Of a stretch of 64,000 nucleotides of DNA, positions 40,937-47,509 are shown one piece after another. The notes under the pieces were generated by a model. The model did no database searches, was not told where the DNA came from, and saw only the letters and a list, made by a program, of their open reading frames with translations. Each line of letters begins with the position of its first letter. Position 1 is the first letter of the stretch. The stretch is from the NCBI RefSeq assembly GCF_012027325.1, contig NZ_SNUG01000003.1, positions 186,001-250,000 on the forward strand. The letters are read 5' to 3'. Origin of the DNA: Thermococcus sp. M39 (GTDB taxonomy: Archaea; Methanobacteriota_B; Thermococci; Thermococcales; Thermococcaceae). Position numbers and translations under genes: made by a program.

Positions 40937-41443
40937 TTACGCTTTTTTGTGCCGCCGTATAAACTCCCCAACATCTGTAATGTTTTTAATAAAGCTCCTC
41001 TCACTATTTGGTTGAATTCTGCCAATTCCCAAAATCACTCCATTCTCATCGAAGAGAACAAGCTTTTTTGTACCTTCCCATTTGTATTCTTTAATGCCCC
41101 TTTTTGGAACATCTTTGCCCGTTGTGAAAAGGAAAGCAGCCTTTGGCTTCAAGATTGCATAGTTCTTTTTGATATCAACGAAGTAGAAGAACTCAATGTT
41201 TGGATAGAATTTCTCCACCAAATTTTCATCAACCTTTATTGTTCCAACAAAAGTTCCAAAGGAATAGGGCTTGAGCTTTAGATTTTCAATCTCTCTCCAA
41301 ACTTCCTCGTTTACAGCATAAACATCTCTGAATTTGCCTTCAACAACTGCAAAAAAGCTGTGCCTAAGTTCGCCATATTTTTCTGCTTCTCTCAAAATTA
41401 AGTCAAACTCCCATGAGGAAACTCTTCGATATCTAAGCTCCAT
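40937..41443 (-). CDS. PUA-domain protein, NIP7-like
   Basis: A 168-residue protein with an alpha/beta amino domain followed by a PUA-like RNA-binding segment ([20 protein letters not shown], then [18 protein letters not shown]). The layout resembles archaeal NIP7-type pre-PUA plus PUA proteins of ribosome assembly or RNA modification; that assignment is from memory. The start is the ATG at 41441-41443, after GGTGTTGGG; the TTG at 41467 would place the site inside the gene. It is alone, upstream of the KaiC promoter. Confidence 0.72.
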
Positions 41444-41567
41444 CCCAACACCTAATATGAATTTCAAAAGCGGAGGTTATAAGCCTTCAGCATGTAATTT
41501 GGTAATAGACTATAAGTATCGCCGAGATTATTTGTCAAGTTTTTGATTCTTTTCCACTCTTAAGCTG

Positions 41568-41848
41568 CTAAATTAAATCCTTATCCGGGCCTATATCGTT
41601 GAGTTTCAAATCTTTCAAATTCATTCCGAGTTCGAGAGATTCTGCTGTTTGCTGAATTATTGATATTACCTCATTAAAAGCCATTAGTCTTCCTAATGCA
41701 TACATATATCCTCCCATATCTTTGTCTTTGCATTTTTCAGCTTCATCTTTTTCTTTTTAGCCTCTAAAGCCCTCTCTTTAATAGCTTCACATAGTTTCAT
41801 AAATAAATGTCTTGTAGCATATCTATATCCACATTTTCCAAATTCCAT
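41568..41848 (-). pseudogene. small conserved-looking gene broken by one frameshift
   Basis: Minus-strand ATG at 41846-41848, preceded by GAGG, opens a frame (MEFGKCGYRYATRHLFMK...) that runs into an A-rich stretch near 41745-41755 and then a stop. Moving one frame at that stretch continues in protein-like sequence (...GGYMYALGRLMAFNEVISII..., then ...LNDIGPDKDLI) to a TAG at 41568-41570. The total is 281 bases, two more than a multiple of three, so a single one-base loss or two-base gain explains it. It is either a pseudogene or a sequencing error in an A run. I do not recognise the family. Confidence 0.55.
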
Positions 41849-41958
41849 CACCTCTTGTTCTTATTCCTCTACACTTTCTATGGAATACTCCTAGAGAGGA
41901 TAAAACTTTCGCTAAAATTGACTTAATCCTAATAACACGAAGCCATGAGCATAAACCC

Positions 41959-43227
41959 TCATAGTCCACTATACCTCAGCGTTATCACTGAAACTCCAAG
42001 TAAGAGAATTGACAGAGAAAAGTTTGTCTCAAAACCAAAGAGCTCTACTAAAATACCACTTGCCAAGTTCCCTATAATTGCTCCAAGAGAGCTTATCAAG
42101 TTGTATGTTCCAATCAGTGTTCCTCTCTCTTTTTCCGGAGCATTCTTAGAGATTACCAATGTTGTTGATATCCCTATATATGCCCACGTGTAACCAGCTA
42201 AAAAGTAGGAGATAAAAGCCAAAAGTAAGAACTTTATCCCACTAAGTTTCAATGCAAAGAGCAAAATCACAAACCCAGCGATCCTAAACATCAGGGCATT
42301 TCTAAGCACCGATATACAACTTTTTGTCTTCAGCTCCATCCCAACCCTTGTATACATGTAAGCTGAGATTGCTGAATTACCCACGCTCATTAAGTATACC
42401 ACTGAAGCTGTATAACCCCTATCTTTTAGAAGAACCGGAAACTGAGTAAAATACAACATTCCACCAATCCAGAACAAAAAAGTTGAAAGATAAAATATTT
42501 TGAATTTCCCACATGAAAAGTGAGGCATGTGAATAATCATATTTGGAAGGTATCTAAACTTCTCAATAACATATCCAAAATACACGCCAAGAATCTTTCT
42601 ATCAATGTGTAAGGGAACCTCTCTAATCACCTTAATTCCCCAAGGAACAGAGATAAGACCAATCACACCAAGCACTATAAATATCTCCCTAATGCTCAAG
42701 AATTGTGAGAGCACAAAACCAATCATTAATCCTATAACCCAAGCCCATCCACAAATTTCATTGAACTTCCCTATAGCATAATCCCAATCCTCAAATCGAA
42801 AGCTCTTAGTTATTATTAGGATTGGTATTGGAATTGTGGATGCAATGAAAAATGAATAGATAGCATTCGTTAAAATCACCTGAGGCACGGACCTGTTTAA
42901 TACAAAGACAAATGTCATCAATGCTGAACCCAAAAATCCTATGATAAGGAAAACTTTTCTCCTATTTAACTTATCAGATAGTTTTCCCCAAAACAGTCCT
43001 CCAAGCATTGAAAAGCTACTTCCAACAGCGGTAACTACACCAACCTCGGAAGGGCCACCTCCAACAGCTAACGTTAGGAGAGGAATCAAAGGAGCTGTAC
43101 CACCAGTTGATATCTTAAAAGGCACAAAAGAATAGAACCACTTTGAGTTGTTAGGTCTCTTCCTCATTTGAGCAGCCTTTTCAAGGCTCTTCAATGTTGC
43201 TCTTTCCCTCTTCATTGAACGCTTCAT
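41959..43227 (-). CDS. MFS transporter
   Basis: A major facilitator protein of 422 residues with about 12 membrane helices. The loop between helices 2 and 3 has the MFS motif GKLSDKLNRRK. A basic cytoplasmic amino tail of about 25 residues precedes helix 1. The substrate is unknown. The start is the ATG at 43225-43227 with GGGGTG nine bases upstream; the GTG at 43236 is inside that site. The next gene up is the acidic small protein on the same strand. Confidence 0.9.
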   Translation of the reverse strand: MKRSMKRERATLKSLEKAAQMRKRPNNSKWFYSFVPFKISTGGTAPLIPLLTLAVGGGPSEVGVVTAVGSSFSMLGGLFWGKLSDKLNRRKVFLIIGFLGSALMTFVFVLNRSVPQVILTNAIYSFFIASTIPIPILIITKSFRFEDWDYAIGKFNEICGWAWVIGLMIGFVLSQFLSIREIFIVLGVIGLISVPWGIKVIREVPLHIDRKILGVYFGYVIEKFRYLPNMIIHMPHFSCGKFKIFYLSTFLFWIGGMLYFTQFPVLLKDRGYTASVVYLMSVGNSAISAYMYTRVGMELKTKSCISVLRNALMFRIAGFVILLFALKLSGIKFLLLAFISYFLAGYTWAYIGISTTLVISKNAPEKERGTLIGTYNLISSLGAIIGNLASGILVELFGFETNFSLSILLLGVSVITLRYSGL

Positions 43228-43286
43228 GAAAAACACCCCAATATCAAAGAAAAAATGAGAACATAAAAAGAGGAGAAAGAGAAAAG

Positions 43287-43466
43287 CTACCAGTCTTCAT
43301 CTTCTTCATCAATATCCCAATCTTCGGACTCATCCCAACTTTCTTCTTCAAAGTCCTCGTCTTCTTCCCAGCTTTCCTCTTCAAATTCTTCTTCCTCAAA
43401 TTCTTCTTCTATAATTGGCTCCTCTTCGTATTCCTCAACTTTTTTCTGTCTCTTTGGAGGTTGCAT
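43287..43466 (-). CDS. highly acidic small protein
   Basis: A 59-residue protein. After a short basic start (PPKRQKK) nearly every residue is Glu or Asp, with regularly spaced Trp and Phe (repeats like EEESW and ESEDW), so it is strongly negative and probably disordered. The ATG at 43464-43466 lies six bases after a perfect GGAGGTG; the GTG at 43475 is part of it. No family is recognised. It may mimic nucleic acid or bind a basic protein; this is speculation. Confidence 0.72.
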   Translation of the reverse strand: MQPPKRQKKVEEYEEEPIIEEEFEEEEFEEESWEEDEDFEEESWDESEDWDIDEEDEDW

Positions 43467-43621
43467 TTGAGACACCTCCCGCCCCCGAGGGGCATCAATA
43501 TTGGTAAAACTTGGGTTTATAAACTTTTTGCTAGATAATGTTGATTCTCAGCCGAGAACTAAAAATTTTAGGGTAGATTAACAAAGTTAACACAAAATAA
43601 AAGCCTCACCTAGGAGAAAGG

Positions 43622-43630
43622 TTTATATAC
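43622..43630 (+). promoter_or_regulatory. strong TATA box before the PLP/DUF1611 operon
   Basis: AAAGGTTTATATACC has a good BRE/TATA match. It predicts a start near 43655 and a leader of about 90 bases to the ATG at 43746. A nearer, weaker box (AATATAACC, about 43703) is also possible. Confidence 0.6.
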
Positions 43631-43745
43631 CCATAACTTACCGTAAATTGGACAACTCCAAATCTTAAAGAATCAGGCTATAGTAAACCAAGATTAGAGC
43701 AATATAACCTTATTAATATTAGAATTGAGAGATTTGGTGGGAGAT

Positions 43746-44060
43746 ATGGAGGACAAAGAAAGCTCCGATAGTGAGACACCACTCATAAGAGCCAGAAAAT
43801 TGGAACAGTACGTGGGAATATCAAAAATATACCCCAAGTTCAAGTTCATGAATCCTACTGGAACCCACAAGGATAAAAATGCGCTCAAAGCGATACATGA
43901 TTCTAACGGTTACATATTTGAATTTTCAGATGATCATGCTGAAATTTTGTATAAGCTTGAGAACATTAAAGCTCTTCCCGCATCTGCTTTAGTCTTGACG
44001 GGTTTAGTGAAATTTGTGAAAAAGTTTGGTGTAGATGGCAAAATTTTGTGCTTATCTTAA
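43746..44060 (+). CDS. shortened threonine-synthase-like PLP-fold protein
   Basis: A 104-residue protein whose ends match fold type II PLP enzymes but whose middle is missing. Residues 10-45 (TPLIRARKLEQYVGI...NPTGTHKDK) match the threonine-synthase amino region with the PLP lysine at Lys42. Residues 55-90 (GYIFEFSDDHAEIL...ALPASALVLTGL) match the carboxyl region. About 250-300 residues that would carry the phosphate loop and most of the active site are absent, with no stop or frameshift. It cannot be a normal catalyst; it may be an in-frame deletion relic or a new small protein. The ATG at 43746 follows GGTGGGAG. It is the first gene of the DUF1611 operon. Confidence 0.7.
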   Translation: MEDKESSDSETPLIRARKLEQYVGISKIYPKFKFMNPTGTHKDKNALKAIHDSNGYIFEFSDDHAEILYKLENIKALPASALVLTGLVKFVKKFGVDGKILCLS

Positions 44061-44075
44061 CTGGAGGGTTTAACG

Positions 44076-45170
44076 ATGGAAAAAACCCTAATACTGGCTG
44101 AAGGTAGATATAACACAACAGATGGGAAGACTGCACATGGTCTGGTTAGGTACTCCAAAAGGTTCCGTATTGTTGGTGTTATAGACTCAACACTCTCTGG
44201 GAAAGATGCAGGTGAAGTTTTGGATGGTATTCCACGGGGAATTCCAATATATGGAAGCTTTGAAGAAGCAATCTCTGAGAATCCAGATGTCAAATACCTA
44301 ATAATTGGAGTCGCTACCCCCGGAGGATACCTGCCCAAGGTGTATCGTGACATAATAAAGAAAGCTATTAAACGGGGCATTAACATTGTCAATGGCCTCC
44401 ATAACTTCTTAAGTGATGATCCAGAATTTTCTCGTCTTGCAAAGCGCTATAAAGTCGAACTAATTGATGTGAGGAAGCTATATCAGGACATGAAAATTCC
44501 ATTCACTGGAAAAATTAACGAAGTTACCTCAATTAAAGTTGCTGTCCTCGGAACTGATGGAGCAATAGGAAAAAGGACAACTGCAATAATGCTCCATGAA
44601 GCATTTGAGAGACTTGGAAAGAAAAGTGTCTTCGTTGCAATGGGACAAACCGGCTGGATGCAGGGAGCTAAATACTGCATAGTTATGGACTCCATAATCA
44701 ACGATTTTGTTGCTGGCGCAATAGAAGATATCATATGGCGGGCATGGAAGGAAGAAAATCCAGATGTCATAGTTACACATGGCGAAGGCTCCCTTCTTCA
44801 TCCCGCATATCCAGGAGGTTTTGAGCTTATAGCTGCAGGGAGGCCTGATTACATAATCCTCCAGCATGCACCTATGAGGAAACACTTCGATGACTTTCCT
44901 CAGTATGAAATTCCACCACTTGAAAGGTATATCCAGCTCATAGAGCTTCTCTCTGGAAAAAAGCCAATAGCAATAACGATAAATTCGGAAAAAATGACAA
45001 AGGAGGAAGCTCTGAAAAAAGCAAGAGAAATAGAGATTCAGTATGGAATAATGACCAGAGTACCGCTTTATGAAGGTGTTGAAGACATAGCAAAAGCAAT
45101 TATTGAAGATGCAGAGAAAATAAAAGTTTCCATTGGAGTGGAAGAAAGTGTTCAGCCTCAAGTGCTTTGA
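44076..45170 (+). CDS. DUF1611 P-loop protein (DgcN-like)
   Basis: A 364-residue protein with an amino-terminal Rossmann-like domain (about 1-150) and a P-loop NTPase-like domain with GTDGAIGKRT at 159-168 and THGEGSLLHPAYPG at 234-247. DUF1611 proteins in bacteria sit next to dipeptide epimerases. From memory, one (DgcN) was shown to acetylate D-glutamate in a D-glutamate catabolic pathway. Here the neighbours are a PP-loop protein and a GNAT enzyme instead. The ATG at 44076 follows GGAGGGT. It overlaps the next gene by 23 bases. Confidence 0.88.
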   Translation: MEKTLILAEGRYNTTDGKTAHGLVRYSKRFRIVGVIDSTLSGKDAGEVLDGIPRGIPIYGSFEEAISENPDVKYLIIGVATPGGYLPKVYRDIIKKAIKRGINIVNGLHNFLSDDPEFSRLAKRYKVELIDVRKLYQDMKIPFTGKINEVTSIKVAVLGTDGAIGKRTTAIMLHEAFERLGKKSVFVAMGQTGWMQGAKYCIVMDSIINDFVAGAIEDIIWRAWKEENPDVIVTHGEGSLLHPAYPGGFELIAAGRPDYIILQHAPMRKHFDDFPQYEIPPLERYIQLIELLSGKKPIAITINSEKMTKEEALKKAREIEIQYGIMTRVPLYEGVEDIAKAIIEDAEKIKVSIGVEESVQPQVL

Positions 45171-46584
45171 TTACATTATTATCGAAAAGCCTAAGATAGA
45201 ATCAAGAAGGATCTCTGCTTTCTACATTATTTCGATAGATGGAGAGGAAAAGAAATTTAAGCTAATACACCACTATCCAGAAAGAATACCAAAAATAGAT
45301 TTATTCGCTAAGCTGATGACAATAACACCGGCAATCAACTATGGGCTCTTCACACCGCTCATATATTTTGATTTCCCCCTCGATGAGAGAGACATACAAT
45401 TCTTTAGAGACATGATGGAAATAACTGCAAGAGATATATTTGTTAACAGGATAGCAAAGAAAACAGGCTTTGTTAAAGAGGAATTCATTCCGAAAGAGAT
45501 TACACCAAAAATGGCAGAGCCGATGGCACAGATAAAGGCAGAAGAAGTGATACACGAAGATATAAAATTTGAACCCGATTATAAAAAGTGCGCAGTAATG
45601 TTAAGTGGGGGCAAAGAAAGCCTGCTTACATACGGTTTAATGAAAGAAATAGGCTGTGAAGTTTATCCATTCTTTTTTAATGAGTCAGGAGGACACTGGA
45701 AGGTTGCGCTGACTGCTTATAAATGGTTCATCAATAATGAACCAAATACAAGGAAGGTTTGGAGCAACGTTGACAGGCTCTATAATTTCATCGAAAGCAG
45801 CATGAGGATATTAAAAAACATTCGCAAACCAAAAGCAGAAGTTTATCCAATAAGATTGTTCTTTTTTGAACATTATGTTTTCTCATTCTTGCCTCTAATA
45901 TACAAGTATAACATCGGAAACATTCTCCTCGGAAATGAATATGATGACCCAAGAGGACTCAGCTATGAATTTCATGGAATTTCCCACTTCTATGCAGTCT
46001 TTGACCAGAGCCAATATTTTGACAAATACATGACAAGGTGGTTTGAGGAGAGAGGATTAAAAGTGAGACAATGGTCAGTCGTCAGACCTTTGAGCGGATT
46101 AATCGTTGAGAGGATACTTTATACTCGCTATCCAACTTTATTTAGACTCCAACGCAGCTGCCATTCAGTTCACAAGGAAAATGGAGAATATGTGCCCTGC
46201 GGAACGTGCTTTAAATGCAATGGAATTCTAACATTCCTCCTAGCAAATGGGATAGATCCAACTTTAATAAAATACAAACCCAAACATGTTGATACATTAC
46301 CTGAGAGGATAAAAGAGGGCAAGATAAGGCTTGACAAGGATGAGCTTGAGCATTCTCTCTATTTAATAAAACAGAAAAACCCAAACTTTCCAATTGAAGG
46401 AAAACCTCACTGGCATGTTGAGATGCTCCATTTTGATGACAGAAATTCCCATTTTGATAACATTCCGGAGGAATTTAGAGAAGCAATCTACACAATTTTT
46501 GAAAAGTACACGAAAGGGTACGTCTATCTCAAAGATGAGAGATGGATTAGAATCTCACGGGAGGAAGCTCTTTATGGAGTTTAA
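45148..46584 (+). CDS. PP-loop protein with zinc cysteines (QueC/MurL-like)
   Basis: A 478-residue protein. An amino-terminal domain (about 1-145) of unknown type is followed by an N-type ATP-pyrophosphatase-like domain with MLSGGKES (PP-loop at 153-158) and FNESGGHW. Cys338, Cys351, Cys354 and Cys357 (RSCHSV...PCGTCFKC) look like the QueC zinc site. The size and plan also recall MurL, an ATP-using glutamate epimerase acting on a murein precursor; I cannot confirm homology. Likely chemistry is adenylation of a carboxylate. The GTG at 45148 follows GGAGTGG; the TTG at 45133 is possible. It overlaps both neighbours (23 and 11 bases). Confidence 0.82.
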   Translation: MFSLKCFDYIIIEKPKIESRRISAFYIISIDGEEKKFKLIHHYPERIPKIDLFAKLMTITPAINYGLFTPLIYFDFPLDERDIQFFRDMMEITARDIFVNRIAKKTGFVKEEFIPKEITPKMAEPMAQIKAEEVIHEDIKFEPDYKKCAVMLSGGKESLLTYGLMKEIGCEVYPFFFNESGGHWKVALTAYKWFINNEPNTRKVWSNVDRLYNFIESSMRILKNIRKPKAEVYPIRLFFFEHYVFSFLPLIYKYNIGNILLGNEYDDPRGLSYEFHGISHFYAVFDQSQYFDKYMTRWFEERGLKVRQWSVVRPLSGLIVERILYTRYPTLFRLQRSCHSVHKENGEYVPCGTCFKCNGILTFLLANGIDPTLIKYKPKHVDTLPERIKEGKIRLDKDELEHSLYLIKQKNPNFPIEGKPHWHVEMLHFDDRNSHFDNIPEEFREAIYTIFEKYTKGYVYLKDERWIRISREEALYGV

Positions 46585-47020
46585 GATAGTTGATGGAGAG
46601 CAATACCTTGATGAGATCCTTGAATATGATATGCAAGTTAGTAGAGAATTCCTACAATTCGACCTCACAGAAAGAGAATATGTTGAGGCATATTCAGCCG
46701 TTATTAACAAACTATTTTCCGAAGGGAAGCACAAGTTCTTCGCTGCGGTGGATGAAAAAGGAAGATACCTCGGGCATGTGTGGGTATGCATTACAATTGA
46801 TACAGTTGACTATGTAAAAATTGCCTATATCTACGACATCGAAGTGAAAACTAAGGGCATTGGAATTGGTTCAGCACTGCTCAAAAAGGCTGAAGAGTTT
46901 GCAAAAGAAAATGATGCAAGAAAAATAGTCTTGCGTGTAGAGATTAATAACCCAGCACTAGACTGGTATAAAAGGAGAGGATACAATGAAAGAGCCGTGA
47001 TTATGGAAAAACTACTTTAA
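46574..47020 (+). CDS. GNAT-family N-acetyltransferase
   Basis: A 148-residue acetyltransferase with acetyl-CoA motif A in DIEVKTKGIGIGSALLKKAEEF and motif B around NNPALDWYKRRGYNE. The acceptor is unknown; from context it may acetylate an amino acid or a peptide-like product of the two preceding enzymes. The start is the ATG at 46574, with GGAGG ten bases upstream inside the preceding gene. The longer frame from 46394 only shadows that gene. The last nine bases overlap the convergent Cys-cluster gene. Confidence 0.9.
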   Translation: MEFKIVDGEQYLDEILEYDMQVSREFLQFDLTEREYVEAYSAVINKLFSEGKHKFFAAVDEKGRYLGHVWVCITIDTVDYVKIAYIYDIEVKTKGIGIGSALLKKAEEFAKENDARKIVLRVEINNPALDWYKRRGYNERAVIMEKLL

Positions 47021-47509
47021 AATATCCATAAAGCCATCCAAATCAGCCTTATCAAACTCCTCCTTGAATTTCAAACCGAGCTCGGCTATCTCTTCTCTTG
47101 TGATGATTTCTTTTCCTTCCCCTATTCCGGGACAGCTTTCATCATAATACAGCCAGAGCTTTTCCCCTTTATATTCAAAAGGCTCTTCCCCTTCAACGCC
47201 CAGAGGTTTGTGAGAAACCATAAAAGGATAAATCTGACAAACTAGGGGATTGTAGTCATGGATTTTGCATTTGCCCGTCTCTGGGTCATGAAATACACAG
47301 CCCAAATCCCACTCTCTGTAAGCCAAGACAAACCTAATTTTTCCGTTTTCAGCTGTGAAGAGAACGAAGTCTTGAGGATCATGGCTATGCTCTGCTATAC
47401 GTTTTATGTCGTAAAGTGTGAGGTAGATAAACCTCCCACGGCAGCAATCTATACAGAATTTGCACTCAAATTTAACATCACTTTTGAGAGGTTTGGGTTT
47501 AAATCTCAT
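47012..47509 (-). CDS. YkgJ-family cysteine-cluster protein
   Basis: A 165-residue protein with conserved cysteines in FECKFCIDCCRG, DLGCVFHDPETGKCKIHDYNPLVCQIYPF and SCPG, the pattern of the UPF0153/YkgJ family, which binds zinc or iron-sulfur. Function is not established. The ATG at 47509 follows GAGGTGAG. It lies nine bases after elp3 on the same strand and overlaps the GNAT end tail to tail. Confidence 0.88.
   Translation of the reverse strand: MRFKPKPLKSDVKFECKFCIDCCRGRFIYLTLYDIKRIAEHSHDPQDFVLFTAENGKIRFVLAYREWDLGCVFHDPETGKCKIHDYNPLVCQIYPFMVSHKPLGVEGEEPFEYKGEKLWLYYDESCPGIGEGKEIITREEIAELGLKFKEEFDKADLDGFMDILK

Follow-up and report, generated by a model that had tools for sequence, protein, structure and literature searches.

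A conserved archaeal operon that pairs a DUF1611 protein with a QueC-fold PP-loop enzyme and may serve the production of an acylated amino-acid-like metabolite

Four consecutive genes in a 64,000-nucleotide stretch of Thermococcus sp. M39 (the window; NZ_SNUG01000003.1, positions 186,001 to 250,000) form an operon whose DUF1611 and PP-loop genes are kept together across Thermococcales and in other archaeal families. We tentatively propose, as a reading that is possible rather than probable, that this archaeal operon moves horizontally and serves the biosynthesis of an amino-acid-like metabolite that is acylated and exported. A first-pass annotation, made by a model from the letters of the window, had suggested that these genes modify an amino acid or peptide. 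The four reading frames lie where it placed them, and both overlaps that it reported are present, one of 23 nucleotides between the DUF1611 and PP-loop genes (45148-45170) and one of 11 between the PP-loop and GNAT genes (46574-46584). The genes of the operon are:

43746-44060, plus strand: fragment of a fold type II pyridoxal 5'-phosphate (PLP) enzyme, a damaged PRK06381-family gene (alignment with full-length relatives)
44076-45170, plus strand: DUF1611 protein (PF07755, DUF1611_C, 1.6e-66; PF17396, DUF1611_N, 8.5e-32)
45148-46584, plus strand: PP-loop protein with a GTG start (alignment, AlphaFold model, Foldseek and profile match)
46574-47020, plus strand: GNAT acetyltransferase of 148 amino acids (PF00583, 6.7e-11), its position kept in relatives

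The grouping of these genes is not due to chance, because the DUF1611 and PP-loop genes co-occur in 24 of 24 Thermococcales genomes and the same operon recurs in other archaeal families. Of the 94 Thermococcales genomes, 24 have the DUF1611 gene and those same 24 have the PP-loop gene, so that the set, which the first-pass annotation had left open to dispersal in related genomes, is conserved together. Its order in Thermococcales is PLP-DUF1611-PP-loop-GNAT, with the cassette-type PLP gene within or adjoining nearly all 24 cassettes and a divergent gene for a transporter of the major facilitator superfamily (MFS) upstream in most copies; no MFS gene was seen beside the G022 and G082 copies. 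Further traces of the PP-loop gene comprise a partial copy at a contig edge in the G094 draft and small remnants in G026 and G035. Two cassettes are decaying: the PP-loop gene is split in G072, and most genes are broken in G074. The Thermococcales search found the set absent from the other six genomes of the window's genus. Between two close copies (L016 and L019), the ratio of non-synonymous to synonymous substitution rates (dN/dS) is low throughout, at 0.06-0.12 in the operon's four genes and 0.22 in the MFS gene; for the window copies, synonymous sites are saturated in most comparisons.

Searching 398 genomes of the phylum of G060 with a profile of the PP-loop family gave 17 full-length matches, and no full-length homologue was found in the phyla of G058 (23 genomes) and G059 (152 genomes). 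Plasmids, phages and viral contigs likewise held no credible PP-loop homologue. A second archaeal phylum has the core in at least four of its families (f46, f31, f61 and f21), where the arrangements are as follows:

f46, genus g92: PLP-DUF1611-PP-loop
f31 (L126): PLP-DUF1611-PP-loop-GNAT, in an order identical to that of the window
f61 (L127): the three-gene core, with an Asparaginase_2 gene and a GNAT gene a few kb off
f21 (L095-L097, L128, L129): the core with a convergent 3' gene, a GNAT in those copies where it was identified
f46, genera g134 and g153 (L130, L131): PP-loop-GNAT with a divergent Asparaginase_2 gene, and in L131 also an MFS gene

Trees of the PLP, DUF1611 and PP-loop proteins give the same main groups (Thermococcaceae, f46 and f21); the single f31 and f61 copies are placed differently from tree to tree, and the evidence therefore points to broad co-inheritance without an identical history. 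The Asparaginase_2 genes, which are beta-aspartyl-peptidase-like, adjoin or lie near PP-loop genes at L127:14997-16464, L130:10727-11665 and L131:10162-11094, and could encode a hydrolase of the product. Consistent with the first-pass statement that no pathway with this gene set is described, a literature search on DUF1611 with D-glutamate, MurL with archaea, MurL with PP-loop, and D-amino acids with Thermococcales returned no description of it. What emerges is a defined, testable operon in two archaeal phyla, centred on an enzyme family without a named function, that links three poorly understood groups: MurL, the QueC-fold modifiers and DUF1611.

Against Pfam and NCBIfam, the window PP-loop protein gave nothing that rose above noise, and a PDB sequence search with it returned nothing meaningful. 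Its SGGKES loop and a cysteine cluster (C338, C351, C354 and C357) are invariant in 14 of 14 aligned homologues; a D-Q-S/T motif, usually YDQS, is also conserved, and the zinc site has the form CHS...CG.C.KC. An AlphaFold model from the alignment of 14 diverse homologues (A5) has a mean local confidence (predicted local distance difference test, pLDDT) of 91.9 and a predicted template modelling (TM) score of 0.91, and supersedes a poor earlier model from Thermococcales sequences alone (pLDDT 68). Compared with the PDB by Foldseek, the model matches QatC over nearly its full length (2.4e-5, TM-score 0.39-0.42), Cap9 (2.6e-4) and QueC (8.4e-4 and 2.2e-3). The Foldseek probability of 1.00 for QatC, Cap9 and two QueC structures shows that the predicted structure shares their PP-loop Rossmann core and zinc site. 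An N-terminal domain (residues ~1-140) precedes the QueC-like core and itself gave weak RNase-H-like matches as well.

Whereas the fold is that of the QueC family, QatC and Cap9 included, the sequence is not that of QueC. The catalytic signature of QueC consists of SGGxDS, YPDC and C(x)8CxxCxxC (PMC13329287). In the cassette protein SGGKES stands for SGGxDS, D-Q-S is conserved, YPDC is absent and the zinc cysteines are spaced C338-C351-C354-C357. These cysteines, called QueC-like in the first-pass annotation, form a four-Cys zinc site as in QueC but differ in their spacing. Among QueC families, PF06508 was unmatched in 11 members and TIGR00364 in the NCBIfam scans. A standard QueC is encoded elsewhere in the same genome (C3:49009, 166 bits). 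The protein does not group with QueC by sequence, and a role as a QueC acting on a nucleoside was rejected on the grounds of its sequence and of the genome's own separate QueC.

The MurL model (NF041275) is the sole NCBIfam model matched, weakly, by 7 of the 14 aligned homologues (best 3.4e-4). Direct scores are 12-19 bits, the best of nine homologues tested reaching 19.2 against a cut-off of 700, and the window protein and the Thermococcales members, tested alone, gave no match. Profile comparison of the PP-loop family gave 4.5e-23 to distant archaeal relatives and 6e-8 to QueC; of those relatives, three full-length proteins match the MurL model at 1.8e-5, 1.8e-8 and 1.4e-9, and a truncated fourth at 6e-4. 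The kinship with MurL suggested by the first-pass annotation is therefore indirect, with no score above the cut-off. We consider the protein to have the QueC fold and to be more likely related to MurL than derived from QueC. The two are comparable in length (447 for MurL vs 478), and the match spans the C-terminal half, including the zinc-cysteine region. They differ in setting: the cassette belongs to archaea without murein and has no MurD2 partner, with PLP, DUF1611 and GNAT neighbours instead. MurL uses one ATP, forms AMP and converts L to D only, although its adenylation mechanism is itself a proposal (PMC8788868).

MurL-like proteins of archaea were seen in two settings. In G638 (L123:7185-11215), a PLP gene of the same PRK06381-type family overlaps the gene for a MurL-like protein, which is followed by a D-Ala-D-Ala-ligase-type ATP-grasp domain fused to GNAT. 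This operon is without DUF1611 and has the peptide-ligase-type enzyme in its place, and by analogy the variant would keep the theme of amino-acid activation and acylation. Proteins of families f27 and f80 (L116:833-2197, L117:1198-2562 and L120:1-1107) have MurL as their best NCBIfam match; neither PLP nor DUF1611 genes were seen beside them.

The DUF1611 protein consists of a Rossmann-like N-terminal domain and a P-loop C-terminal domain (GTDGAIGKRT). Its relatives in the PDB are 2g0t, 2obn and 7xrj, with a conserved core in common, and 7xrj is a DgcN-type structure. DgcN reportedly N-acetylates D-glutamate, after which DgcA racemises the product. The likeness to DgcN (NF041892) extends to the same domains and to a common P-loop, GQTG, DFVAGAIE, GxGSLxHPAY and H-x-P-x-R-x-H; the cassette protein differs in that its partner is a PP-loop enzyme and not DgcA. 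The first-pass identification of the protein as a DgcN acting on D-glutamate was not borne out, since the window protein scores 166 bits, widely missing the curated cut-off of 480 (relatives 172 and 168 bits). Glutamate as the substrate received no specific support and is one candidate among many.

No dipeptide epimerase (DgcA) gene adjoins the Thermococcales cassettes; such genes are present in haloarchaea and f35, adjoining DUF1611 in Haloprofundus and, as read from sequence, in two f35 genomes of the second phylum. The closest non-archaeal relatives of the DUF1611 protein (about 43% identity) adjoin alanine/ornithine racemases, and DUF1611 with a gene of this racemase family occurs on Aliiroseovarius, Phaeobacter, Vibrio parahaemolyticus and Ruegeria plasmids. 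Of the four marine plasmids (L061, L063, L064 and L065), three carry small hypothetical genes upstream, and some have HflK/HflC or GspS-like genes nearby. Phages carry DUF1611 as well: Dickeya phage AD1 (L068:4021-6720) has adjacent methyltransferase, DUF1611 and asparagine-synthase-type PP-loop genes, and DUF1611 is found in 32 Erwinia phage records (Erwinia jumbo phages). The Dickeya asparagine-synthase-like protein was rejected as a homologue of the cassette PP-loop protein, the match being a 48-column one at superfamily level.

The first-pass annotation noted the PLP-fold fragment, which is there, but not that it is the damaged copy of a longer gene. Most relatives have a full-length gene (~300-330 amino acids), and alignment A2 shows that the window copy lacks, without loss of frame, about 190 codons that separate the lysine motif from the C-terminal part. 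Lost with them is the PVGNGTT segment, which by fold analogy is presumably the phosphate-binding loop; the C-terminal end, too, is altered and unmatched to relatives. Five intact cassette PLP proteins score 380-443 bits against PRK06381 (NF004996, 'threonine synthase'), above its cut-off of 266, whereas the window fragment scores 79 bits; its PALP match (3.9e-7) is under the Pfam cut-off. Canonical threonine-synthase-like proteins of the same genomes are 32-35% identical to the cassette PLP protein. The window genome has no intact close second copy, its other matches being canonical threonine-synthase-like proteins at 32-34% identity. Because the PLP gene is broken and has no close second copy, the pathway is probably incomplete in this genome; either it is inactive, or another enzyme supplies the step, or the assembly is in error.

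The operon lies within an island, together with two genes on the opposite strand:

41440-47033: island of ~5.6 kb with the whole cassette (blastn of the window against G004, G003 and G015)
41959-43236, minus strand: MFS transporter, divergent from the operon, a putative exporter (Pfam MFS_1, 5.7e-35)
43287-43466, minus strand: small, very acidic, Trp-containing protein of 59 amino acids, unannotated (Shine-Dalgarno-like sequence, conserved N-terminus)

The segment from about 41440 to 47033 is an insertion relative to the collinear flanks of the congeners G004 and G003 and of G015, from another genus. The counterpart of the island is ~695 bp long in G004, ~458 bp in G003 and ~26 bp in G015, which bears its own cassette at a different site. 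Three kinds of genomic site hold the cassette, in the window genome, in genus g6 and in genus g3, and the cassette therefore behaves as a horizontally moving unit. The window island showed neither a mobility gene nor a clear repeat at its flanks, and its G+C content (about 36-41%) is equal to or slightly under that of the flanks.

The acidic gene separates the MFS gene from the PLP gene; it is read in the same direction as the former and lies a short way upstream of it. It encodes 49-70 amino acids, with a basic PPKKK start followed by an Asp/Glu-rich part with spaced Trp residues, and has no Pfam match. A Shine-Dalgarno-like GGGAGGTG and the conserved N-terminus recur in 15 aligned loci, and single-base codon differences fall by position as 118:100:2006. 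The gene accompanies nearly all the Thermococcales cassettes examined, whereas outside Thermococcales no convincing copy turned up next to the operon; a profile search with it failed to re-detect the window copy at 0.001 and so undercounts. We assign it to the transporter and not to the enzymes, because it is found with the MFS gene in five genomes without the cassette. The acidic peptide as a substrate of the cassette was accordingly demoted, as its gene follows MFS into genomes that lack the enzymes.

Alongside the observed gene set, its order, fold relations, co-inheritance, island and broken PLP gene, we infer a pathway, in its chemical steps and their order, its substrate and its direction of transport. 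The threonine-synthase-like PLP enzyme would make or supply an amino acid, which the DUF1611 protein would acylate or activate in a putative acyl-transfer or carboxylate-activation step. The PP-loop enzyme would adenylate the carboxylate with ATP, and would then either epimerise the residue, as MurL does, or form an amide, as in QueC. GNAT would acetylate the amine, and the MFS transporter would export the product, best read as an amino acid or short peptide that is acylated and possibly also epimerised. Of the first-pass interpretation, a functional unit common across archaea is supported, the glutamate substrate and the DgcN function are not supported, and epimerase activity is hypothetical. 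Several points weigh against the proposal of an exported, acylated metabolite. The window genome's own copy of the PLP gene is damaged. Some genomes hold a PP-loop-GNAT pair without adjoining PLP-DUF1611 genes, and beyond Thermococcales no gene of the window's MFS family was seen next to the operon; given these pairs and the limited range of the transporter, the genes cannot be taken to form one proven linear pathway. Over the full length the closest structure is QatC, which is not a known epimerase, and its TM-score is low (0.39-0.42). The putative homology to MurL, finally, is read from weak direct matches and an intermediate family.

The MurL relation and the racemases found as partners of DUF1611 tip the balance slightly towards epimerisation and away from amide formation. 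That murein-free archaea use a dedicated operon to make and export a metabolite with a D-configured or epimerised residue, its PP-loop protein being an ATP-driven epimerase of a new class that works outside peptidoglycan synthesis, is a speculative extension that we think rather unlikely. If true, it would open a route to D-amino-acid metabolites in such organisms and supply thermostable proteins for structural studies of ATP use by MurL-type epimerases. Judged by the QueC/QatC fold, amide formation is as possible as epimerisation, and an amide or peptide-bond ligase of QueC or asparagine-synthetase type, in which an adenylate reacts with an amine and the product is an amino-acid amide or dipeptide, acylated but not epimerised, is unlikely but deserves serious consideration. 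The QueC-fold domain with its zinc site and PP-loop speaks for such a ligase, as do the asparagine-synthase-type PP-loop gene adjoining DUF1611 in the Dickeya jumbo phage, the ATP-grasp ligase beside the PLP and MurL-like proteins of G638, and the Asparaginase_2 neighbours. The family profile is nevertheless nearer to MurL-like proteins than to QueC, and the neighbours of DUF1611 elsewhere are often racemases or epimerases.

It is improbable that the operon serves instead to salvage D-amino acids, with MFS importing them, DUF1611 N-acylating them as DgcN does, and the PP-loop enzyme replacing the DgcA epimerase so that the cell can use the L-form. The core in common with 7xrj, a DgcN-type structure, would fit such a route, but the score of the window protein lies far from the DgcN equivalog cut-off, and no dipeptide epimerase or deacylase gene is present in the Thermococcales cassette. 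The DgcN-DgcA route is described as racemising acidic D-amino acids and their amides irreversibly and at a high cost (PMC12363236), and amino acids are a carbon and energy source of Thermococcus kodakarensis (PMC9986279); MurL, however, is reported to run in one direction only, from L to D (PMC8788868). Modification of a protein or peptide tag, as by QatC or Cap9, with the PP-loop enzyme altering the terminus of a small protein such as the acidic peptide, seems very improbable. QatC, the best full-length fold match, is thought to modify the N-terminus of QatB (PMC13279940), and a conserved small acidic protein is encoded beside the Thermococcales cassettes. But the acidic gene also travels with MFS into five cassette-free genomes and is not convincingly present beside the operon outside Thermococcales. 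In contrast to the qatABCD defence system, QatA, QatB and QatD are not neighbours of the PP-loop gene, which has PLP, DUF1611, GNAT and MFS genes instead, and no defence-family match rose above chance, PADLOC giving 0.01-level matches only.

The same window also carries an archaeal RNase P RNA and C/D-box RNAs.

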